Below, piece after piece: positions 1,548-46,677 of a DNA stretch of 64,000 nucleotides. The stretch is from positions 312,501-376,500 of the forward strand of contig NEEC01000014.1 in NCBI GenBank assembly GCA_002189035.1. Direction: 5' to 3'. Positions within the stretch are counted from its first letter, which is position 1; the number at the start of each line of letters is the position of its first letter. The notes under the pieces are model-generated. The model searched no databases. It was not told where the DNA came from and saw only the letters and a program-made list of their open reading frames with translations. This DNA comes from Utricularia gibba (Eukaryota; Streptophyta; Magnoliopsida; Lamiales; Lentibulariaceae). Made by a program: the position numbers and the translations under genes.

Positions 1548-1932
1548 TGTTGAAGGATGATGTGGTTGGCCAGAGTCATCACGCTGAGTCTCACGAAGGG
1601 GAAAGAATGTGGCTAGGGTTCGAGGAACAAGAAGGCCGCTGAAATGAGCTAAAACCATGGACCACCGCAACAAACAAGGCCCACCTAAGCTTTGGAAAGG
1701 CCACAGGGGGGGCTCAAACCAGCCCAGCCTAACTCGCAATACATGGGATCATGAGCAACCAACCTCCACCACTTGTGCAACGGTAACATTTATAGCCGTT
1801 GGGAAAAACTCTATAAGTACTGAATCACACCTGTAACGAATAGAATTCTTTTCAGCAAAACAGATACAATAATATCAGTTATAGTTCAGTGACTAGAAGA
1901 GGCTCCAAGTTAGAGAGCTACATATCCTTTCA
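1548..1932 (+). repeat. 5' LTR of copia element C
   Basis: This LTR starts TGTTGAAGG and ends CTTTCA, 385 bp, directly followed by the primer-binding site. A TATA-like CTATAAGTA lies near 1809. Confidence 0.93.
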
Positions 1933-2057
1933 TGGTAACAGCTGTGGGATAAAAGCAAGACTCTGCTCAAAGCACAGCAATCCCCTCCCAGGTTCCACGA
2001 CTAAACTACATTGTCTTACTACTAACCTTTCCTCTTAACAGGAAATTAGCTCTCCTC

Positions 2058-2872
2058 ATGGCACTATCAAACCCAAGCTTACTACCTCCCCTCACTTTTG
2101 ACGGAAAAGACTACTCTAGATGGGCAGCCAAGATGATCAATCATCTCAAAACTCTAAAATTGTGGGAAGTCTTTCTGGACCCGCCACTCCTCGCTAACTC
2201 TGATGCTGTCCTAGCTGCAAAATGGGAGGAAAAGCAACTCTTAGCTAGAAGTGTCTTGGATGCAGCAATTGATGGGGAAGCCTACGACCATATAATACAC
2301 TGCAAGACCCCAAAAGCAGTCTGGGATACACTAACCTCTGAGTTCTCCATTACAGAAGAGAAAAAGGAGAAAGAGATCATTGCCTTATGGCGACTTATAG
2401 ACGACCTAACATTGGCCCCTAGAAGCTCCATGGCATCATTTGCTGAAACACTCCTACCTGCCATAAAGAGACTCAAAGCCCTAGGCGAAAATGTTGATGA
2501 CAGAAGAGTTAAGGAAAAAATAGTTGGAGTACTCCCCAGATCCTATAGTGCTGCTGTCACTGCCATAGTCACTACCGGGGCTTGAAAAAATTGACTCCTG
2601 CACAACTGATTGAGGCTCTAGAAGATGCTGAAATTCGAGACAAAAAATACCAAAACCAGGAAATCAACGATGGAGCATTCAAAGCCTCTCACATAAACTC
2701 AAGCAACAGAATGGAAGGAAAGGAAAGAAAAGGCGATCACCCCCATGTCCTTACTGCAAACAGAGAAACCATGTGCCCCAAAACTGTTTCTACCACCCTG
2801 AGAAAGTCTGCAACTACTGCCAAGAAAAGGAACACATCCAAAGGGTTTGCAAAGTCCGAAAGGAGGATGAAC
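2058..2872 (+). pseudogene. gag of copia element C (broken)
   Basis: The first ATG after the primer site opens a gag reading frame with the usual copia capsid layout: an N-terminal region with a DYSRWAAKM stretch and a UBN2-like middle. It stops at 2583-2585 and continues in another frame. Around 2740-2850 two CX2CX4HX4C zinc knuckles follow each other, the nucleocapsid part. The frame break and stop mean that no full gag can be made. Confidence 0.8.
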
Positions 2873-5800
2873 TGAAAAGGCACAAAGACTCTGAATATGG
2901 AACAAAGAATCATAAAGCAATGTCCATTGTATCTTCCTCCTTATGCAATGAACTAGAAGTAATTGATCTTTACTCATGTTGCAAAGACAAAATCTGTGTT
3001 ATGACTTCAGAACTCAAAGAGGATCAAACCTGGCTTGTCAATAGCGGGTGTAGCAACCACATCTGTAATGACCCCTCAAGCTTCACAACCTACAGACCCC
3101 TACATGGAAAGACAATAGAAATCGCTGATGGGAATGTCATTAAAGTACATGGAATTGGGACTGTGAGATTGAAGATGGAGGACAAATGTATTGATATCCA
3201 AGACACCTATTTTGTCCCACAAGCATCACATAATCTTATAAGCGTAGGACAATTGATGACTTGAGGTCGATCTGTGAACTTCATCGATGATCAGTTTGAA
3301 ATTAGTGCACCCTCTGGAAAACTTAACCTAAAAGTCAGGATGTAGAACAAGGTGTTTCCCTTGAGGACCCAAGACTTCTCTCACGCCACCACCACAATGT
3401 GCCTCTCCGCCAAGGAATCTGCCAACCTCTGGCACAAGAGATGCGGCCACCATAACTTCACATCCCTAAACAGAGTATAGAAAAATCAGCTGGTAACAGG
3501 TCTACCAATGCTAACTGCAAGCCATGATCTGTGTGAAAGCTGCCAATATGGGAAACTTGCCAGAAAACCCTTCGGACAAAGTATGAGGATAGCTACCAGA
3601 AAATTAGAGCTCATGCACAGCGATGTATGTAGACCTATGAGCACATGTACACCGGTAGGAAACAGGTATTACCTTATTTTCGTTGATGACTACACTAAAT
3701 TCTGCTGGGTGTTCTTCTTGAAAAACAGGTCCGAAGTGCTAGACTACAAAAAATTCAGAGTGCAAGCTGAAAATCAGAGCGGAGAAAAACTAAAAAATCT
3801 GAGGACAGATAATGGAGGTGAGTATACACCTGTGGAACTTGCCGAAATCTGCAATCAAGAGGGCATCATCCACCAGTTTACTGCACCCTACACAGCCCAG
3901 CAAAATGGAGTGAGTGAACGCGGAAACAGAACCATAACAGAAATGGCTAGATGCCTTATGTTTGAAAAGGAAGTGCCAATAGCTTATTGGGCAGAAGTAG
4001 TGAACACCTCTGTATACTTACTAAACAGACTACCTACAAGTGGAATTGCTGACTACAAGACTCCATTTGAACTATGGTATGACCGGAAGCCAAGTGTTGA
4101 TCACCTCAGAGTGTTTGGATCTGTATGCTACTCATATATACCGAAAGAGAAAAGAAAAAGTTAGATAAAAAGGCATAGATTGGAATTTTTATGGGATATA
4201 GTGAGGTTACAAAAGGATACCGAGTTCTACACTTGAATACTAAGAAAATAAGTATTAGCAGGGATGTGACATTTGATGAGTCCAGGAAGTGGGTGTGGAA
4301 CTATGGCATATCAGAGCTACAACCGATGGGAAACAGCTACCACACTCAACTTCTCAACTGCCTACAAACTCTAGAACCCGTAGAAGGTAGTGAAGCGTGT
4401 ACAACGATGACAAACATTGGACCAGAAGAGCAAAGTCAAAATTCAGCAAGAATACCCGCTCCAACTGACCCCCCACAATCGTTGGACCACTCACTCGCAC
4501 CTGAAGTACCAGCCAACCAAGCCGCCATACCTTATGTTACAAGCGAAACTGAAATCGAGAATGAACTGCCGCTCCAAGCTGACATTAACACAAATGAAGA
4601 AGTATCAGACACGGTAACTGAGAACGTGGGAAATGCATCAAGTGAAAGTACAGGCCTGTCAGAACATGAAGGGAACAATAGAACAGGGGAACCTCAAATA
4701 TATGATTGCCCTGATGGCTCCGGGGCTGACTCCCACGAAGGAGACACAGATGCAGAAACACCTTGCGATGGAATCTTCAGTAGCCCTCAAGACAAACCTG
4801 AAACACAACGGTACAGAGACATACACAACGTATATGACATATGTATGTGTTAAAGGCACCCGAGTCTATTTCAGAGGCCCTACAACATCCAGGGTGGAAA
4901 CTAGCTATGGATACAGAAATGGAGACTATAATCAGGAACAACACGTGGACCCTAGTGGACAGACCAAAACACAAGAAAGTTATAAGAACGAAGTGGTTAT
5001 TCAAACAGAAGTTAAATCCCGATGGCACTGTAAACAAATTAAAAGGAAGGATAGTAGCAAAAGGGTACGCACAAAGAGAGGGCATTGACTACTCAGATAC
5101 CTTTGCTCCTGTTGCCAGATTAGACACCATCAAGTTAATATTAGCACTCTCGGCATGCTTCAGTTGAAAGGTCTACCACTTGGATGTGAAGTCAGCATTC
5201 CTGAATGGTATCTTAACAGAGGAAGTATATGTAGAACAACCTGTAGGCTATGTGAAATTAGGGGATGAAGATAAGGTTTATTTACTCCATAAAGCCCTAT
5301 ATGGACAAAAGCAGGCCCCTAGACAATGGTACAGCAAAATTGACACTTACTTTCAAAGCCAAGGCTTCATGAGAAGTGAGAATGACCCAACACTATATGT
5401 ACTAAGCTACAATGACAAGGACAAGGTAATCATCTCATTGTATGTGGACGGCATTCTTATTACCGGGAGCAAGGAAGAACTTGTGGAGGAACAAAAGAAG
5501 CAACTCATGAACCATTTCGAAATGACAGACCTGGGAATTATGAGCTATTTCTTGGGACTAGAGATCTCTCAGACAGAAGATACTATATACCTTAGCCAAA
5601 CTAAGTGCGTGCATGACTTAATCCATAGATACAAGCTAAGCAAGAGAAGACATGCTTCTGTACCTCTCTCCCCATATGCAAAACCAGTAGCCATAGAAGC
5701 TGACACAACAGGGACCATCAGCGATCCTGGAAACTTGGCAAACGAAAAAGGTTACAGGAGCATAATAGGCTCTCTAATGTACCTGTCAGCAACTAGACTA

Positions 5801-6430
5801 GACATTGCTTTTCCGGTTGGACTACTCTCCAGATTTATGGGAAACTCGCACCAGAACCACTATGAAGCTGCAAAGAAAGTACTTAATTATGTGAGATGCA
5901 CTGCAAACCTCAGGTTAGCTTACAAGAAAAATTCTAACCCACACATCAAGTGTTTTGTGGACAGTGATTTTGTAGGTGACAGTACCGACTACAAATCGAC
6001 ATCTGATTACATCTTCTTACTTGGGGGAACCGCCTTTGCTTGGAACAGCAAAAAACAAGAAGTGGTTGCCCAGTCATCGGTAGAAGCGGAATACATAGTG
6101 GTAGCAATGGCAGCAAACCACGTTGCTTGGCTACTGAAAATTCTCAAGGATTTACAGATGGATCTGGACTAAACCATACCGCTCAATATAGATAACAAGT
6201 CAACTATCAGCATGGCAAAGAATCTAGTGGACTTCGGTCGATGTAAACACATAGCGATCAAATATCATGCACTCCGCAACTATGTAAGGAGCAAGGTGAT
6301 TGAGGTGGAGTACATACCCTTGATTGAACAGGTAGCAGATCCGCTTACGAAGCAGATGTACCCAAAACAATTCTGCTATTTGAGGGAGAAGATGGGTCTG
6401 AAGAACAGCCGCTCCATATGTCAAAATGAA
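2773..6430 (+). pseudogene. pol of copia element C (protease, integrase, RT, RNase H; broken)
   Basis: The protease motif is at about 3031, where the catalytic triplet reads NSG instead of DSG. The pre-integrase zinc region and integrase core follow (3400-4160, with RTDNGGEY). Reverse transcriptase spans about 4841-5700, and its active-site box reads YVDG in place of YVDD near 5440. RNase H spans about 5750-6400. Stops interrupt it at about 3262, 3478, 4162, 5165 and 6170, and there is a frame change near 4850. Most lesions fit C-to-T or G-to-A decay. Confidence 0.85.
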
Positions 6431-6461
6431 GGCAACTTAGAGCCAAACCATCAAGGTGGAG

Positions 6462-6883
6462 TGTTGAAGGATGATGTGATTGGCCAGAGTCATCACGCTG
6501 AGTCTCATGAAGGGGAAAGAATGTGGCTAGGGTTCGAGGAACAAGAAGGCCGTTGAAATGAGCTAAAACCATGGACCACCGCAACAAACAAGGCCCACCT
6601 AAGCTTTGAAAAAGCCACAGGGGGGGCTCAAACCAGCCCAGCCTAACTCGCAATACATGGGATCATGAGCAACCAACCTCCATCACTTGTGCAACGGTAA
6701 CATTTATAGCTGTTGGGAAAATCTCTATAAGTACTGAATCACACCTGTACCGAATAGAATTCTTTTCAGCAAAACAGATACAATAATATCAGTTATAGTT
6801 CAGTGACTAGAAGAGGCTCCAAGTTAGAGAGCTACATATCTCCTCCAAAGAGGCTCCAAGTTAGAGAGCTACATATCCTTTCA
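6462..6883 (+). repeat. 3' LTR of copia element C
   Basis: This LTR is 422 bp. The extra 37 bp relative to the 5' LTR is a tandem duplication of the segment near its end (about 6811-6878) that contains AGGCTCCAAGTTAGAGAGC. It is preceded by a polypurine tract and followed by the GCTGC target duplicate. Confidence 0.93.
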
Positions 6884-23039: not shown

Positions 23040-23107
23040 TTTTATTTTAATATAAATATTTAGTAAAAGCAATTTTTTATAAGTAGCATGTATGATTAGC
23101 GCTTACC
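23040..23107. repeat. Copy of the PC-esterase gene 3' flank, located upstream of gene copy 1
   Basis: The block containing GCAATTTTTTATAAGTAGC and ATGTATGATTAGCG matches the DNA downstream of both PC-esterase genes (about 25503-25565 and 44697-44765). Its position just before gene copy 1 suggests a former tandem neighbour upstream. Confidence 0.65.
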
Positions 23108-23577
23108 TAATATAAATGCATTTTTAAAGCTTCCTCAAAATTTGTTCATTTTTTTCTGGAAATTTACCTAAAGTTTACTTTTTGAATCAAATCTGAAATC
23201 CGAAATTTTCTGGAATGAAATGAATCTTAAAATGGTTCCGCCAGTCATTGACAATTCGCTACTCACTCTATTTCTATAATGCGGTCTAATTATTTTAGTG
23301 CAGGTAACCCCTTAAAGTCAACTGCATGCCGCTTAAATTATTGTCCTAAGGACCGCGATTCGTCCATTTTAATGACAAAAAGGAAAGCTAAGCAGACAAA
23401 GTGACAAAAAAGTACATAACTTGGTAGGCTCGCTAGCACATCTACCCAACACAAGCAGAGAGCATATGAATTAACAATGGAAGCTATAAAATAGCGATAC
23501 TACAAATCCAGTTGTCTTAATCCTGATCTCGATTAAGCTGCATTAGGAGCTCATACTTCGGAGCTATTTCTAAGGTG

Positions 23578-25361
23578 ATGGTGAGCCAACCCGAACTCTT
23601 TCAGGTACACACACAGACTTTGTTATCGGCTGTCAGTGTTTAGGTTCCACGATTTGGTGGGCTAATCTGTTAATGCGTTGCTTCGTTTTCATACATTGTA
23701 CAATGCAGGAGAAATTTGGGAAAAGTCGATGGGTTTCTATGGTGAATTCAAGCTTAAAGTATATGATTCTTGGATCATGTGCTGCGCTGCTCATTGGCTG
23801 CATCATCAGTATCATTTTTTCAAAAGATTTTGCTACCAGTAAATTGATCGATTCCGAGTTTTCGTCAAGAGTTATCCCTCTGGGTCCTACCCAATTTCGG
23901 TCAGGTACGACAAATGATAGCAATCTGGTGTCTTGGATCTCTGTCGACTACGGAGCCAACTACTCCTCATGGGTTGTTGATAGATGGCTTACTCAAGTGG
24001 ATGAACCTTGTAAGAATTCAACTACTGTGGGGGTTCAATTTCCTTATTTAGAAAACAATGCCAGTAGTATATTGTTATCTACTGGTGATATTCACGAGTT
24101 TGTTTTCCAAGCAGTAGATGAGTCAGGGAAGCTTCATTGTTTAGGGGGAGATTACTTTGAGACCGATCTTTCAGGGGAAAGATGGAAATCCAGGCCTGCA
24201 ATACAGGATCTAGGAAATGGATCTTACACACTTTTTCTTCAAGTTCATTCTGATTTTGCTAGAGATTACAATCTGACCATTACTCTCTTGTTCAAACACT
24301 ATGAAGGCCTCGAGCATTCCACTGAAAGATTCTTTGTCGGCAAGGTCGTCAGTATGATTCCGATTAAATTCTACACATCTTTGTCCCAGTTGCCTGAAAT
24401 AACCCAATGCAGAAGTAGCGATTACTCGAGAGATGTTTGGTCTGGACGATGGACTCGTCATGCAAGAAATGATAGTTGCACAATTAGTGATGATGGGAGA
24501 TACAGATGTCAGGAGCGAGACTTCCCCTGTGAAAAGCCATGGTGTGAGGGTCCATTAGGATCTATAGAGAGCAACGGGTGGGTGTATTCAGCTCATTGTT
24601 CATTTAGAATTTTTACCAAGTCTGAAGCTTGGACTTGCTTAAAAAATCGATGGATTTTTTGGTGGGGCGACTCGAATCACTTGGATACAATACGCAACCT
24701 ACTTAACTTCGTCTTGGATTTTAACTATGGTGACATTGATAGAAGATTTGAGAGCAACATCACCAATCCTGAGGATCAGTCGCAAGTAGTGAGAATCACC
24801 AACATCTTCAACGGCCATGCGCACCCATACGAGAACAATGAGGGCTTGAACTCAATGAACGATCCAGAATATAGAGCACTTTTGAAAAGCTACTTTTCGG
24901 GTGAGGTTATTCCGGACACGATCTTCATGAACTCAGGTCTCCATGATGGAAGGTTTTGGCCTAACATTAGCAGTTTCATTGGCGGAGCGGAGTATGCAGC
25001 ATCTTTCTGGAGAGAGGTGATGGATGAGGTACGACACAGAGGAGTAAGATCACCGGAGATTGTGTACCGTACAACAGTGGCAGCTGGGGGATATGCTCGA
25101 AAACAAAATCTTAATCCTCAGAAGATGGAGGCATACAATGGAGTGATGTTAGAGAAATTTTGGAAACATGGAGTTGTGGAGAAGGTGGTTGATGACTTCG
25201 ACATGACTTTTGCTTGGCACTTTGACAACATCTGCAGCGATGGTTATCACTACGGGCGCTTGCCTTCAAAGTCGCAGTGGGTGGATGGCAATATCGGGCA
25301 CCAGTACTTCCTTGATGTCATGCTGGTTCATGTCCTCTTGAATTCCATTTGCGTAAATTAA
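23578..25361 (+). CDS. NXPE-like PC-esterase domain protein, copy 1
   Basis: Two exons: 23578-23604 (9 codons, MVSQPELFQ) and 23709-25361, joined in phase by a GT-AG intron; about 559 residues. An ATG at 23673 also opens the long frame, but lies in the proposed intron. Layout: a short cytosolic tail, a membrane anchor (about residues 25-47), a luminal filamin/immunoglobulin-like region (about 110-230, with GNGSYTLFLQVHSDF), then a PC-esterase domain with WGDSNHLDTIRN (nucleophile Ser) and near the end CSDGYHYGRLP (Asp/His of the catalytic triad). Families with this fold (NXPE, TBL/DUF231) modify extracellular or cell-wall glycans in the secretory pathway; the substrate here is unknown. Many N-glycosylation sequons fit a luminal location. 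The paralogue is at 42781-44557. Confidence 0.8.
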
Positions 25362-27230
25362 TTCTACCTGTCGAAAGGGCTTCTTTTATTAAATAAAAAA
25401 AAAAGGTTCCACGAATATTTTGGTTATAAACACAATCGATTTCCATTCTTAAAAGCATCTAAATATAGAAACATTTCTTATTTTAATTAAAATACATATC
25501 CAATTATTTTTAATAAAAGTAATTTTTTACAACTACTATGTACGACTAGCGTTGACGTTTGGCAGGCTCATTAAATGAGCTTGGTCAAACAATTTCATAA
25601 ATTGCAAGAATTTCCGAAGCAAATTTAAAAACCTCTCATTTGCTAAATAATCCAACAAATTTATCTTTATAAAATGCAAGTACTGAAATATGATTAATCA
25701 TATTATGGATCATTTTTCGATTACTCAATTTTATGATAATAAAAATATTTTTATCATATAAAATGCTATAGAGTGATAGAATAATAGTTATTTAAAATTA
25801 TTTTACATACGATTAATGACTCTATTTATATGAGACTATTTTTTAAAGTATATTGCACAGGAAAACCTGTGGTAAGATATACCGCAAAACATGAAATTGG
25901 GTGCATTTCCATTATGGCTGTGATTTTCGTGGGTTGGGCCTCAATCCCCCACTGTATAGCCTGAGAGAATATATCACGATAACTTGCCTCTCATTTCAAA
26001 ACAGAATTTTTGGGTGTTGAATTTGAGTTTTATACTCTAGGAGAGTGGTGATGAACGTTAGAATGAAATGCTAAATGTTGTGGGTTTAGTATATTTAACA
26101 CATCAAAAGAACTTTATAAATCTAGTTTTTTACTATACAAATCACATGAATTAATGTAATGTAATAAGCAAAAGTTGAATCCATAGAAAATAATTGCAGT
26201 TTATTGAAGTCTTTTACATTTGCTGAAAACACGGGGTTTTATGGGGGTTTAACTCTCATGCACATAAAATACAAAATAATAGATATTAAAATAAACGAGT
26301 TGTAAGAGTAAAGAAGTATAGAAAATATAAATTGAAGTTGTTTTAGTTGTATTTTACATCAGGGTCTAATTCTTGTGTCACTCAAGAGAACTCATAGATT
26401 TAAACCCAATTTTAACATACTTAAAAACAAAGCAAAGAGTCGTGGAAACAGTAAATAACATGTTAAAGTTAAAAGCAAACATGAAGGGCTTAAATAAGTG
26501 ATGTGACCCTCTAATCTAAATAGAATTAACAATACACGAATAAGAGGTGATTTTGAAACTTAAAAAGGAACTCATTCTAAGTCTACTTTCTAGAGAATAA
26601 ATCTCTTGCAACTAGATTTTAGAAGAAAGAAAAATTAAGAACCACACTTTAAAAATAGAAGAAATTGGAAGTGATAATTTTAGTACACCACAAGCTCAAA
26701 GCTTGATAAGTTAAGAGTATTCAAATATTTAAAGAAGAGAAAAATCTTAATAAGATACATCAAATGAATTAAAGGATTTCAAATAGTACATCTCTAAAAT
26801 ATTTATATTCTTGAATTGAGTTCTAACATTACAAAACTCAAATTAAATAAAAAGAAAAGCTTAACAAGTCCAACAACACAAATGAAAGATAAAAAGATGT
26901 TTTGAATTCTAAGGTAGATTCAATCTCAATTAATTGAACTCCTTTGATGGTAACACTTCAATTCATAGTTGATACCAATAATGTTGAGTAAAGTTTTGAG
27001 TGTAGTTTTAACCATTTTGCTCTTACTCCTTGTCATTAGTCTTGATGAAGTGATCTTACTATCCGAAGTGTTTATTTATGCAACATCCTCTTCATTCTTT
27101 AAATACTCTCCTCTTCTTCCTAGGATTCATTAACAGGAACATGTTCATAAGTTGAAATAAGGTCTATAGGGGATTTCTCATTCACAACAAGGTAACAGAA
27201 TGTAACAGAAAGCACAAAAACGAAGGAAGT
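25362..27230. other. Flank of PC-esterase copy 1, AT-rich
   Basis: 25362 to about 25680 is shared with the flank of copy 2, and 25670-26050 with 36310-36650. The rest, to 27230, shows no gene. Confidence 0.5.
25670..26050. repeat. Segmental duplicate of 36310-36650
   Basis: Shared blocks include AAATGCTATAGAGTGATAGA, ATAATAGTTATT, AATGACTCTATTTATATGA, GGTGCATTTCCATT and GGCCTCAATCCCCCA, in the same order. Confidence 0.8.
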
Positions 27231-36846: not shown

Positions 36847-37338
36847 TGATGGGTCCCTTCATATGGGGCCCACACTAATATTAAAAAAAAACGTGCGAGT
36901 GTTGGGTTTAGGTGGCGTGCCAACCCTAAACCCTAAGTGTTGGCGTACCAACCCTTCAAGGTGGTATGCGCTCCCCTCTATTTATAGAGGGAGCTATCCC
37001 TCCCCCATAAGATACACACAAGAGAGCTCATATTATCTTACGTGTTTTGAGTGAGTTTTGGTTTTCGAGTGTAGAATATGGAAAGGAGAAAGATAATATT
37101 CTTTCCTATTCGTGTTTCTCGCCCAGTAGAGTTTTCGGGAAGAGGGTAGAAAAAGAAGGTAAAACCCGATAGTTTACCAGGGTAAATCTCTTTGTATTTA
37201 TTATAGTAAATAGTGAATTTTTCTCAGAGTTGAGTGTGGACGTAGTCCTTATTTTGGAGTGAACCACGTTAAATCTTGTTGTCTTTTTCTTGATTTTTGC
37301 GGTCAGTTTTATTGTCTGGTAATCAACTGCGCACATTA
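36847..37338 (+). repeat. 5' LTR of copia element D
   Basis: This 492-bp LTR begins TGATGGGTCCC and ends GCACATTA; the primer site follows after 2 bases. It holds an extra segment with two CCCTAAA-like units (about 36922-36935). Confidence 0.9.
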
Positions 37339-37470
37339 AGTGGTATCAGAGCTAGGGTTGTTTGTGTGATTGCTATCTTATCGTATGCTCTGTGGCCGCC
37401 ACTAAGTGGATCTCCCACATCAGAAAATAAGTTGGTATATTGCACATTCTCCTAGTCGGTATCAGGGAGC

Positions 37471-40400
37471 ATGGAGGTCAAGATCGGCAGTATGATCAAG
37501 TTGAATGAGACGAATTATCTCTTGTGGAAGTGCAAGATGAAGGATTTGCTTTTCGTGACGAAAATGCATCTACCGGTGTTTAGTGAGACTAAACTGAATG
37601 TGAAGACTGATGAAAAATGGGACTTCAAGCATCAGCAATCCAGCGGTTTTATCCGACAGTTTGTCGAAGAAAATGTGTATCAGCATGTTGCTGAAGAGAC
37701 ACATGCAAGGAGCGTGTGGTTCAAGCTACAGAATCTGTACACCTCCAAGACATGAAGAAACAGATTGTTTTATGTCACGAAGTTGATTACTCTGAAGTAT
37801 AGAGAAGGGACTTCTGAAGCGGATCATTTGAATGAAATTCAAGGGGTCGTGTCGCAGTTGGCGACAATGGGCATCTCGTTCAATGATGATCTCTTAGCAC
37901 TGTTGATGCTAGCTACTCTACTAGAATCTTGGGAGACTCTCATGATTACATTGATGAGTTCTCCAAATCTATCACTTGAGCAAGTCAAAAGTGTAGTTCT
38001 CAATGAGGAGAAAGATGCAAAATGCTTCAACCTATGGGCAACAAGATATCATGGTTGCAGAACCTAGGGGGAGAAGCAGGGCTCGTGGGTCTAACGTACA
38101 GAGTGAAAGAAGGGATGGCAAGAGTAGGGAAAGGAATAAGTATGCCAATGTGGAGTGTCATTTTCACAAAAAGAAGAGGCACAATAAGAAGAACTACTAG
38201 AGCTTTCAAAAGCAAAGCAGAAGTGAGAAAAAGACGAAGTCCAGAGATGATGACGACATGAATGTCATCAAGGAGTTCAACTTCGCAATTGATGAAAATA
38301 TCAATCAAATCTCTGAAGAGATGTGCTAGGTGGTTGACAATGGAGCCACTTTTCATGTGACATCAAGAAATGAGTTATTCTCATCTTATACAACAAGGGA
38401 TTTTGGCACCGTGAAGATGGGAAATGGACAATTGTCGAACGTTGTAGGTAAAGGAGATATTTGCCTACGGATGAATAAGGGCATGAAGTTGACCCTTAGA
38501 GATCTTAAGCATGTGCCAGACATGCGATTGAACCTTATCTCGGTTCACCATCTCGATTGTGAAGGTTATGCCATGAACTTCAATGATGGCCGGTGGAAGA
38601 TGACTAAGGGTTCATTGGTCTTTACCACTGGAGAGAAGTTGAATAAGCTGTATGTAACACAAGCTAGCAGTTGTGTTGGTGTTGCTAGTGTTGTTGAAAA
38701 AGGAGTTCCTGTTGATGTGTGGCATAGATGCCTTTGCCATATGGGTGAAAAAGGCATAGAGACTTTGACGAGAAAGAAGGTGTTGGCTGGGCTCCTCGAT
38801 CAAAATTCGAGGCCATGCAATGATTGCTTCATTGAGAAGCAAATGAGGGTGGTATTTAGAAGAAGACCCCCGAGTAGAGCCAAAGTGATCTTGGATCTGA
38901 TGCATACAAATGTTTGCACTCCGAAGATTATATCGCTTCGTGAAGCTCATTATTTTGTGACGTTCATTGATGATCACTCTTGCAAGACTTGGATCTATCT
39001 CATCAAGACAAAAGATTAAGTTTTGGAGAAATTCAAGCAGTTTGTTGCAATGGTAGAGCAAGAAACTAGTAAGAAGGTGAAGTGCATTCGCACTGATAAT
39101 AGGGGAGAGTATCTTGGGCCGTTTGATGGCTATTGCAAGAAGCTAGGAATCTAACATCAGTTTACTGCAGCAAAAAAAACCGCAATTGAATGGTTTGGTA
39201 GAAAGGATGAACCGAACTTTGATGGAAAGAGTAAGATGTCTTCTTTTGCACTCAAAGTTGCCTCAAATATTTTGGGGAGAAGCTATTCTAAGAGCAGCAT
39301 ATGTTCTGAATCTTTCGCCATGTGTGCCGTTAAGACGAAGTGCTAGAGAAGGTTTGGTTTGGAAAGGAGGTCTCTTATGATCATCTACGGGTGTTGGGTT
39401 GCAAGGCTTTGGTTCATATTCCAAAGCATGAACGATTAAAGTTGGATTCTAAGACACGTGAATGTGTGTTTATTAGTTATGTCCAAGATCAGTTTGGGTT
39501 TCGATTCTATGATCCTATCTCGAAGAAGCTCATTAGGAGTCGAGATGCTATCTTTGTTGAGTAAGAGAACATCAAAGACATTGGGAATGAAGGATGTTCG
39601 AGTGATACCTCCTGTGATGGTGCCTGAGAATGAAGGAGGTGAAGTTGAAGATCATGTTCCGGAAGTTTCCCATGATCATGAAGAACCAGAAGTTGCTAGT
39701 AATGGAGATGGTGTGGTTCAACAACCATCATGTTCCACTGGAAGTTCCCCTGTGCGCACAAGATCGAGAAGGATTGTGCGGCACCCTGCTAGATTTTTGT
39801 TAGATGAGTTTGTTATACCTACTGACGAGGGAGAACCTGAGAGCTTCTAGAAGGCTATGGAAAGCTGAGATAAAAAGTTTATGGATGAAAGCTGCTAAAG
39901 AGGAAATAAGGTCCTTGAATGACAACAAGATGTTTCAACTGGTGAAGTTTCTTGAAGGATAAAAGGCACTAAGGTGCAAGTGGGTTTGTAGAATAAATCA
40001 TTCTGAAAATAGCTCGAAGCCACGATACAAGGCTAGGCTGGTGATGAAGGGTTTCAACCAGCATAAGGGCATCGATTATGATGAGATATTTGCATCAGTT
40101 GTGAATATGACATCTATCTGGACAGTGCTAGGGTTGACAGCAAGTCTCAACTTGAAAGTTGAGCAAATGGATGTTAAGACAGCGTTCTTACATGGTGATC
40201 TAGAGGAAGAGATCTATATGGAACAGCCAGAAGGTTTTGTTGAAAAAGGAAAAGAGGGGTATGTCTGCAAGTTGCAGAAAATCCTATATGGGTTGAAACA
40301 GGCACCAAGGCAATGGTACAAAAAGTTTGACTCAGTCATGAAGAAGCACGGCTTCAAGAAGACAAGTGCTGACCACTGTGTGTTCTTCAAAAGATTCACG

Positions 40401-41390
40401 GATAATGACTTTGTGATTCTATTGCTCTATGTTGACGACATGCTGATTGTTGGGCAGATTACTTCAAGAATTGCAAACTTGAAGAAGGAGTTGAATAAGC
40501 CTTTCTCGATGAAAGACTTGGGGCGAGCAAAGCATATTCTTGACATGAAAATCATCAGGGATAGAGATGCCAAGAAGATATGGTTGTCTCAAGAACAGTA
40601 CATTGAGAAGATTCTTGAGAGATTTAACATGAAAGACATCAATGCGGTTAGCTGCCCTCTTGCTAATCATTTTCAATTGAGCAAGAAACAATGACCATCG
40701 ATCGAGAAAGAACGGAAAGCGATGATGAGTGTTCCCTATTCATTAGCTGTTGGGAGCTTGATGTATGCCATGGTATGTACCCGATCGGATATTGCTCATG
40801 CTATTGGAATTGTGAGCAAGTTTTTGTCTAATCCAAGGAAGGATCATTGGTATGCTGTGAAGTGGATTTTCAGATATCTACGGGGATCTTCAAGCATGTG
40901 TTTATGCTTTGGAAGTGAAGAGCCTGTGTTGAAAGGATACACAGATGCTGATTTAGCTGGTGATGTTGATGGTCGAAAATCAACATCGAGATATTTGATT
41001 ATATTCGTAGGGGGAGCTGTGTCTTGACAGTCAAGACAGCATAAGTGTGTTGCTCTATCTTCGACTGAAGTAGAATATATTGCAGTTATTGAGGCTTGTA
41101 AGGAATTGTTGTGGATGAAGAAGTTCTTGGGAGAACTTGGTGTGAAGCAAGGGAAGTATGATTTATTTTGTGACAATCAGAGTGCTATCCATCTAGCGAA
41201 GAATGCTTCTTTTCACTCAAGATCGAAGCATATTGATCAGCGCTATCACTAGATCAAGGATGTCTTAGAGGAAAAGCACCTGTGTCTAGAGAAGATTCAT
41301 ACTGAAAAAAATGGTTCAGATATGATGACGAAGATACTTTTGAAAGAAAGCTTCAAATTCTGTAGAAGAGTTGTTGGGTTGACCAGCTCA
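37471..41390 (+). pseudogene. gag-pol of copia element D (broken)
   Basis: Gag starts at ATG 37471 (IKLNETNYLLW), stops at 37753 and continues in shifted frames; its zinc knuckle near 38150 has lost cysteines. The protease keeps Asp in DNGAT (38334; normally DSGAT). Integrase spans about 38700-39560, RT about 40041-40690 with LLYVDDML intact at about 40430, and RNase H about 40722-41390. Stops or frame changes near 38200, 38327, 39017, 39153, 39560, 39850 and 40692 prevent expression. Confidence 0.85.
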
Positions 41391-41413
41391 CCCACTTGTC
41401 GAGAGGGGAGAAT

Positions 41414-41870
41414 TGATGGGCCCCTCCACATGGGGCCCACACTAATATGAAAAAAAAACGTGTAGGGGTTGTCACATCAACCCTTCAAGGGTGGCATGCA
41501 CTCTCCTCTATAAATAAAGGGGAGCTATCTCTCCCCCCTATAAGACACATACAAGAGAGCTCATATTATCTTATGTGTTTTGAGTGAGTTTTGGTTTTCA
41601 AGGGTAAAATATGGAAAAGAAAAAGATAGTATTTTTTCCTATTCATATTTCTCGCCTAGTAGAATTTTCAGGAAGAAGGTAGAAAGAGAGGGTAAAACCC
41701 AATAGTTTATCAGGGTAAATCTTTTTGTATTTACTATGATAAATAATGAATTTTTCTCGGAGTTAGATGTGAACGTAGCCCTTATTTTTGGGTGAACCAC
41801 GTTATTTTTCAGTGTATTTTTCTTGATTTTTGCAATCAATTTTAATGTCTGATATTAATTACGCACATCA
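41414..41870 (+). repeat. 3' LTR of copia element D
   Basis: This 457-bp LTR begins TGATGGGCCCC and ends GCACATCA, with a TATA box (CTATAAATAAAGG) near 41508. Confidence 0.9.
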
Positions 41871-42349: not shown

Positions 42350-42780
42350 AGAATATAAATGTATTTTTAAAGCTCCCTCCAAATTTGGTCATTTTTTTCT
42401 AAAAATTTACCTGAAGTTTACTTTTTTAATCAAATCTGAAATCTGAAATTTGCTGGAATCAAATGAATCTTAAAATGCTTCCACCAGTCATTGACAATTG
42501 GCTACTCAATTTCCCCGCGAGGACTCTATTTCTATAACGAGATCTAATTATTTTAGTGCATGCAACCCTTAAAGTCAACTGCATGCCACTTAAATTATTG
42601 TCCTAAGGATCCTGATTCGTTCATTTTAACGACAAAAAGAAAAGCTAAGGAGACACATCTACCCTACACAAGCAGAGAGCATATGAATCACCAACGGGAA
42701 CTACAAAATAGCGATAGTCCAAATCTTGTTGCCTTAGTCCTGATCTCGTTTGCGCTGCATTAGGAGCTGTTTCTGAAATG

Positions 42781-44557
42781 ATGGTGAGCCAACCCGAACT
42801 CTTCCAGGTACACACATGTTGTTATTGGCTGTCAGTGTTTAGGTTCCAGATGGTGGGCTCATCTGTTAATGCGTTGTTTCGTTTTCATATATTGTACAAT
42901 GCAGGAGAAATTTGGGAAAATTCGATGGGTTTCTATGGTGAATTCAAGCTTAAAGTATATGATTCTTGGATCATGTGCTGCGCTGCTCATTGGCTGCATC
43001 ACCAGTATCATTTTTTCAAATGATTTTGCTACGAGTAAACTGATCGATTCGGAGTTTCGGTCAAGAGTTAACCCTCTGGGTCCTACCCAATTTCGATCAG
43101 GTACGACCAATGATAGCAATCTGGTGTCTTGGATCTCTGTCGACTACGGAACCAACTACTCCTCATGGATTGTGGATAGATGGCTAACTCAAGTGGATGA
43201 ACCTTGTAAGAATTCAACTACTGTGGGGATTCAATTTCCTTATTTAGAAAACAATGCCAGTAGTATATTGTTATCTACAGGTGATATTCACGAGTTTGTT
43301 TTCCAAGCAGTAGATGAATCAGGAAAGCTTCATTGTTTAGGAGGGGATTATTTTGAGACTGATCTTTCAGGGGAAAGATGGAAATCCAGACCTGCAATAC
43401 AGGATCTAGGAAATGGATCTTACACACTTTTTCTTCAAGTTCATTCTGATTTTGCTGGAGATTACAATCTGACCATTACTCTCTTGTTCAAACACTATGA
43501 AGGCCTCGAGCATTCCACTGAAAGATTCTTTGTCGGCAAGGTCGTCAGTATGATTCCGATTAAATTCTACACATCTTTGTCCCAGTTGCCTGAAATAACC
43601 CAATGCAGAAGTAGCGATTACTCGAGAGATGTTTGGTCTGGACGATGGACTCGTCATGCAAGAAATGATAGTTGCACAATTAGTGATGATGGGAGATACA
43701 GATGTCAGGAGCGAGACTTCCCCTGTGAAAAGCCATGGTGTGAGGGTCCATTAGGATCTATAGAGAGCAACGGGTGGGTGTATTCAGCTCATTGTTCATT
43801 TAGAATTTTTACCAAGTCTGAAGCTTGGACTTGCTTAAAAAATCGATGGATTTTTTGGTGGGGCGACTCGAATCACTTGGATACAATACGCAACCTACTT
43901 AACTTCGTCTTGGATTTTAACTATGGTGACATTGATAGAAGATTTGAGAGCAACATCACCAATCCTGAGGATCAGTCGCAAGTAGTGAGAATCACCAACA
44001 TCTTCAACGGCCATGCGCACCCATACGAGAACAATGAGGGCTTGAACTCAATGAACGATCCAGAATATAGAGCACTTTTGAAAAGCTACTTTTCGGGTGA
44101 GGTTATTCCGGACACGATCTTCATGAACTCAGGTCTCCATGATGGAAGGTTTTGGCCTAACATTAGCAGTTTCATTGGCGGAGCGGAGTATGCAGCATCT
44201 TTCTGGAGAGAGGTGATGGATGAGGTACGACACAGAGGAGTAAGATCACCGGAGATTGTGTACCGTACAACGGTGGCAGCTGGGGGACTTGCTCGGAAAC
44301 AAAATCTTAATCCCCAGAAAATGGAGGCATACAATGGAGTGATGTTAGAGAAACTTTGGAAACACGGAGTTTTGCAGAAGGTGGTTGATGACTTCGACAT
44401 GACTTTTCCTTGGCATTTTGACAACATCTGCAGCGATGGTTATCACTACGGGCGCTTGCCTTCAAAGTCGCAGTGGGTGGATGGCAATATCGGGCACCAG
44501 TACTTCCTTGATGTCATGCTGGTTCACGTCCTCTTGAATACGATTTACGTAAATTAA
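42781..44557 (+). CDS. NXPE-like PC-esterase domain protein, copy 2
   Basis: Same structure as the gene at 23578-25361: exon 1 42781-42807 (an extra in-frame ATG sits at 42778), exon 2 42905-44557, about 559 residues. Anchor, filamin-like region, GDS nucleophile motif and DGYHY motif are all kept. Differences from copy 1 are confined to the N-terminal third and the last roughly 100 residues (for example LEKLWKHGVLQ for LEKFWKHGVVE). The middle is identical at DNA level. Intact frames in both copies imply that selection or recent conversion has kept them functional. Expression timing cannot be read from the sequence. Confidence 0.8.
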
Positions 44558-46677
44558 AGCTCTGTTTCGAAGGGATTCTTTCATTAGAAAAAAAACGTTG
44601 CACGAATATTTTGGTTATAAACACAATCGATTTCCGTTCTTAAAAGCATCTAAATATAGAAACATTTCTTATTTTAATTAAAATACATATCTAATTTTTG
44701 TTTTAATAGAAACATTTAGTGAAAGTAATTTTTTATGAGTAGCATGTATGATTAGCGTTACCTTTGGCATGCTCATTAAATGCCAATTCAATAAGCCAGG
44801 TCAAACAATTTATTTTCAGTTTTCTAAAAATTGCACATGAAATTTCAACATCTCTTATTTGGTAAATAATCTAAAAATTTTATTTTTCTATAAATAATGT
44901 TGAGTGTCATTTTCTTTCTACGTATTAGTTCATTTTCTATATTTAAACGTAATTAGAATTCTCAAATTGTAAATTTATAATATAAATTTTAAGTTTTATC
45001 TAGATTTGATTAATTATCTTAATTTATCTGTTTTATCTAATATTTTTATCTATTTTTTGTTTAAGTTTTATTATGGACAAACACATGGCATGAGGTGTGA
45101 GAAAGGAAGTATTATGTGATGATAAAATAAATATCCCGAATTGATATGAGCTTTGATGTACAGTATATGAAAACCTTTTACATATGAAATAATTAGTGTA
45201 TCAGTATTAAAGCAGGAGTTTTTTTTTACAAGTCACTCCAATTTACACAAAGATTAGAGTAACACAAAAACTTATACAAAAGTAGTTTAATTTCAGTTCA
45301 AATTTTAATGTAATTTTTAAATTTTAGACTTTTGTTTATTTATGTAAAAGATTTTCCTTTAACAAATAATATTATCTCTTTACTTGAAAAAAAAATTACT
45401 CTAAGTTAAAGGTATAATGAAAAATTATCTTTTTTCTTTAAACTTTGAACTACGGGTATTTTGATAATATTCTAAATAATATTGTCTATAATCAATTTCC
45501 TATATAACATTTTAATAATATTTTATATAAAATTCAATCATAAAATTTTCTACCAAACACATGAAAATTAATCATTCCTTAAATAGCATACCCTACAAAA
45601 CACACCAACTGTTTTTCAAATCTCTCATCCAATGACATTGAGTCATGGGCGTAGGCGAGACATTTAGATTTCAGGGTTTATGAATGTAGACATAATTATG
45701 TCTTTCTGGATTCAGAGGGGCCCCTAAAAGTATAATTCTAAAAGCACCTAACAAATCATCTTGAAATGTGAATGAATGCAAGGGAATTAATTAAGTACAG
45801 AAGTGCGATTTCAAGGGTTTATAGCTTAATTGGCCAATCTACCATTTTTAGGGTTTGGGGTGTATTTCGTGTAGCTAGGCATGCAATAAAACATCGTTAT
45901 TGCCCTCACTCATTTTAGGATTTAGGGATTTAATAGTAGCTCCCCAATTAAACCTCGTCAGTTGTTCTCGTTTACATTTGCAGTAATTCAAGATCCCATT
46001 CCTCATCTGCTGTACATGCGTCATGCTTCTGGATCAATCCCACCTGAACTTGGCAATGAAAACTGTTTTTTTTTTTTTGGAAAAAAAATAAGCTGTTCGT
46101 TGGACTCAAAACCCTTGGATCGTAAAAACCATCTTTTGAAACTTTGAAGTATCAAAATCAATGCAAAAGAGCCGTTCATCTACGACCCTCACACCATTAT
46201 TTTATGATTTGTATTGAGAGTAAGTATTGCAGAGTACAAAATACTATTTCTTAGAGTGGCTTGGCCGCAAAATTAGCGTATGCCTACGTATCCCAGAGTT
46301 GAATGCCAATACAGAACTTTCGCAGAGAGAAGAACAGTTGCTTTTCATGTGCAGCAAAAAACCCATATTCAAGATGCATAATCATTAGCACTTGTTTCAC
46401 TTTTCTTACTGAAGTTTCTTTAACATTTTATTAAGAGTTGGTACGAAGAGATGGTGTAATTGGAGGAAAAGAATACCTCCACGTGGGGTTTGACTTGAAT
46501 TGGCGAATGGGCACTGACTATTTGCTAATAATTAATCTCTAATCAACCTCACCCCGGTTATGGATTTGAACATTAAATCAACAGGTATGTAATACAATCG
46601 ACCGGTTAATTGCTCTATTTGTGTAGGCATTTAATTGCTTTGGTAAAGTCTCCGGTGCCAACAAGTTCGAAGCCGCT
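44558..46677. other. 3' flank of PC-esterase copy 2 and upstream of the phylloplanin-like gene
   Basis: Up to about 44900 it is shared with the flank of copy 1. 44900-45900 is AT-rich with no gene. 45962-46147 has a short open stretch with no supported identity. Confidence 0.4.

Follow-up and report, generated by a model that had tools for sequence, protein, structure and literature searches.

Recent gene conversion as the probable origin of an 814-bp identical tract in two diverged NXPE/PC-esterase-like genes of a plant

Why do two otherwise diverged gene copies, about 19 kb apart, share a long stretch in which not one base differs? In the window (the whole 64-kb stretch of DNA analysed here), self-BLAST identified two duplicated blocks of about 2.6 kb, in direct orientation on the forward strand, at 23109-25674 and 42352-44893, with 90.2% identity over 2610 columns and no similarity beyond their ends. 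Each block carries an intronless frame of 552 codons that opens at an ATG common to both, copy A at 23703-25361 and copy B at 42899-44557 (both on the + strand), and the two proteins are 97% identical. The preliminary description of this DNA had placed an identical tract at 24263-25074 and 43459-44270. Exact matching confirmed the tract and extended it by one base at either end, giving an 814-bp stretch, 24262-25075, in which every base of the assembly sequence is the same as in 43458-44271 (both + strand). The bordering differences are at 24261 (A/G) and 25076 (A/G), followed downstream by those at 25092-25093, and the 260 bp preceding the tract contain 10 differences (3.9%), in agreement with the earlier statements that about 4% of these sites differ and that differences resume directly after the tract. 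The further statement that flanks and introns differ more is correct for the noncoding flanks, which are 10.5% different upstream (plus indels) and 15% downstream, but not for introns in the coding part, as the 552-codon frame at 23703-25361 is uninterrupted.

All 41 differences in the 1659 sites of the A/B coding alignment fall outside the tract, 25 of 559 sites (4.5%) to its left and 16 of 286 (5.6%) to its right. By Nei-Gojobori-style estimates, Ks is 0.132 to the left of the tract, 0.136 to its right and 0 over the 163 silent sites within it; about 20 silent changes would be expected within the tract, and observing none has a probability of about 2e-9. When the columns of the coding alignment were permuted 100,000 times, the longest difference-free run was 506, compared with the 814 observed (p<=1e-5). 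The same permutation gave p<=1e-5 for third positions only and 1.1e-4 for first plus second positions. A GENECONV-style permutation test, proposed earlier as a check, was applied to eight copies of the family and picked out this pair and this tract: A and B agree at 338 consecutive polymorphic sites (24264-25073), with pairwise and global p both 2e-4, the smallest value attainable with 5000 permutations, and no other pair reached that global level. A chance origin of the 814-bp run is thus excluded.

The eight copies comprise A, B, five further copies in a tandem array on contig C4 (C4_1 to C4_5; L009 3440-8021 and L010, G000:C4:350000-365000) and a single copy on contig C413 (L011). They allow us to ask whether the segment is simply slow to change. 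A strong purifying selection, or a recent duplication, could in principle keep the middle of the gene identical; the region of the likely catalytic serine lies in the tract, where Ka against the other copies is lower than in the flanks. However, the six other copies differ from A and B in the tract by 12-20% overall and by 22-34% at third positions, approximately as in the flanks, yet A and B differ from each other at none. The comparison of A with C4_3 gives the same picture, with Ks of 0.37 on the left, 0.50 in the tract and 0.45 on the right. Since its silent sites diverge normally from the other paralogues, the segment is not unusually constrained. The preliminary description had argued that purifying selection would not keep silent sites identical and that a recent duplication would leave the flanks identical too. 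Both arguments hold, as the sequence flanking the tract is old by its Ks, and we regard selection or recent duplication as an extremely improbable source of the identity. We also observed that 23040-23108, just upstream of copy A, resembles 44696-44763, just downstream of copy B (90%), a likeness that an origin of the block in a tandem array would predict.

An error of assembly or polishing, in which reads or sequence from one copy replaced the consensus of the other, deserves more weight. Three of the eight copies as assembled (C4_2, C4_5 and the C413 copy) contain frameshifts, one of them in a short C run where a base may be missing, so that some consensus errors are possible. Nevertheless, such homogenisation is not expected to end sharply within a 2.6-kb duplicated block, and the difference of about 5% elsewhere between the copies would probably be enough to separate their reads. 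Identical runs in all other pairs of copies are at most 96 bp long, which argues against a general merging of the family. Furthermore, the copies have different flanks and are part of a single contig, which is 3.1 Mb long (in an assembly of 100.1 Mb and 516 contigs), and the window contains no N, suggesting long reads. We therefore consider an artefact improbable. Somewhat less probable again is that A and B went through two successive unequal crossovers, or a double crossover, instead of a non-reciprocal transfer. Two successive unequal crossovers would produce the same pattern as conversion, and the direct orientation of the copies at 19 kb, together with the tandem arrays of the family on contig C4, is favourable to them. 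Such a history needs two events with breakpoints in the same gene that restore the original copy number and the intervening 17 kb, whereas a single conversion event is simpler.

Recent interlocus gene conversion between A and B best accounts for the tract, with a probability of about 0.88 in our estimation. This agrees with the preliminary reading and is supported by a Ks of about 0.13 on both sides compared with 0 inside, by the normal silent rate of the segment in other comparisons and by the permutation tests. The tract is sharp-edged, its flanks are equally diverged and the site is not slow-evolving. The equal Ks on the left and right would be expected from a single old duplication after which the middle was overwritten once, recently. 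A chromosome break in one gene copy can be repaired with another copy as template. A and B would then be old paralogues, with a silent divergence of about 0.13, in direct orientation about 19 kb apart; a recent break in one of them was probably repaired from the other without crossing over, and this repair would have overwritten at least 814 bp in the middle of the gene in a single, non-reciprocal event. By our own arithmetic, 0 changes in 163 silent sites set a 95% upper bound of about 0.018 on the silent divergence of the tract, which is at most about 14% of the flank divergence and, with the same 95% bound, places the transfer within about the most recent 14% of the history that separates the flanks. 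With coding frames that lack introns, conversion mediated by cDNA would look the same as this route. We also polarised the flank differences with C4_3 in search of the donor. The split is even (15 derived in A, 18 in B) and, as the copies do not differ inside the tract, does not inform on its origin.

The event resembles known cases of interlocus conversion between nearby paralogues (PMC3924818), including plant NLR families such as RPP8 (PMC6771003), in its sharp identity tract between diverged paralogues, in the mosaic trees within the family and in the intrachromosomal position of the copies close together. In published experiments, such conversion occurs mainly above 80% identity, and most estimated mean tract lengths are between 50 and several hundred bp (PMC3924818). 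A and B are above 80% identity and hence similar enough to convert. With at least 814 bp, their tract is long for its kind and exceeds most of these estimated means, which is a caveat to the conversion reading. In contrast to RPP8, the family of A and B does not encode immune receptors.

Trees built by region suggest that this core had also been converted earlier. In the tree for the part left of the tract, C4_4 and C4_5 cluster with C4_2; the tract tree instead joins them to A, B and C4_3 with 100% support and pairs C4_1 with C4_2. Each of these topologies was rejected by AU tests on the other region, the left one on the tract at 2e-7 and the tract one on the left part at 7e-4; the part right of the tract is not long enough for a decision. 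According to the informative sites, the segment in which C4_4 and C4_5 switch, going with A, B and C4_3 and not with C4_2, is 24131-25112 in copy A coordinates (+ strand). Inside it 45 sites favour the switch and 11 oppose it; outside, the counts are 3 and 45 (permutation p 5e-5). As placed, this segment is 982 bp long and contains the young 814-bp tract. Because C4_4 and C4_5 belong with C4_1 and C4_2 on the left, the recipient was probably the ancestor of C4_4 and C4_5, and the source a gene like A, B and C4_3. At least two exchanges, nested and of different age, have thus affected the core while the ends of the gene diverged, and the older one, of nearly the same segment, shows that this family does convert, which supports the conversion reading of the A/B tract. 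The lowest divergence among all copies is at 24403-24602, inside the core, where strand pairing would be easiest; this may be linked to the exchange. It is possible, although we hold it to be doubtful, that conversion is non-random along the gene, with the core around the catalytic serine repeatedly homogenised and the N-terminal anchor region and C-terminal end remaining copy-specific. In that case, either the core alone would be similar enough to start repair, or selection would favour shared cores with diverged ends.

The gene itself appears to be under constraint, as Ka is well below Ks (Ka/Ks well below 1) for copy A against both B and C4_3. Its protein is distantly related, as far as sequence comparison suggests, to the NXPE/FAM55 PC-esterases: the only Pfam match is to NXPE4_C (E 8e-4), whose 19.5 bits lie below the curated cut-off of 27 for formal membership, and all five intact copies match this model weakly. 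PC-esterases are defined by GDS and DxxH motifs, and some have filamin-like Ig domains (PMC2824669). Correspondingly, WWGDSN and SDGxHY are invariant in 5/5 intact copies, the GDS motif lying inside the young tract and DxxH outside it, downstream of 25075. The intact copies have an apparent single N-terminal membrane anchor, read by eye from the sequence, and the filamin repeat of gelation factor is matched weakly (E 0.003). Human NXPE1, which carries GDS and DxxH, acetylates sialic acid and requires the motif residues, including the serine, for activity (PMC12216134). An apparent N-terminal anchor, GDS and DxxH in a C-terminal domain and, to judge by the weak match, possibly a filamin-like region are shared with the NXPE/FAM55 proteins (PMC12216134; PMC2824669), so that copy A resembles an animal protein type in a plant genome. 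The Pfam NXPE4_C score below the cut-off and a genome with a plastome set A and B apart from that family. The 172-kb contig C516, with its intact rbcL, appears to be the plastome, and broken rbcL pieces on C2 (G000:C2:3012594-3013507) resemble nuclear insertions of plastid DNA.

GDS, DxxH and a likely single anchor are also common to the plant TBL/PMR5 O-acetyltransferases, for example XOAT1 (PDB 6cci). Unlike the motifs, sequence similarity to these enzymes was not detected, and Pfam gave no match to the PMR5/PC-esterase models. As to an SGNH-like alpha/beta fold, an AlphaFold model made from five sequences is of low confidence (mean pLDDT 41), and a PDB fold search with it returned mostly unrelated proteins; XOAT1 and acetylxylan esterases are among them, XOAT1 as a weak structural match among many chance ones. 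Relatives were not found in the bacterial, archaeal and viral collections. Taken together, motifs and anchor suggest that the protein is probably a membrane-anchored glycan O-acyl-transferase or esterase.

Gene conversion of this kind is a textbook phenomenon and ordinary in kind; the case is clear and well supported, and the nested older exchange is the added result. It illustrates recent conversion cleanly in a plant gene family that has received little study. Because parts of one gene have different histories, whole-gene trees and duplication dates for this family will be wrong. With its older, nested event, the family is also a small system in which a preference of conversion for the conserved core could be examined. 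Two Copia-type elements lie in the same window. An LTR retrotransposon at 1548-6883 has 379-bp LTRs that are 97.6% identical, suggesting a fairly young insertion, and its gag, integrase and reverse transcriptase frames are interrupted by stops. An older element at 36949-41868, with terminal repeats 84.7% identical, lies between A and B and ends about 0.5 kb before the copy B block.
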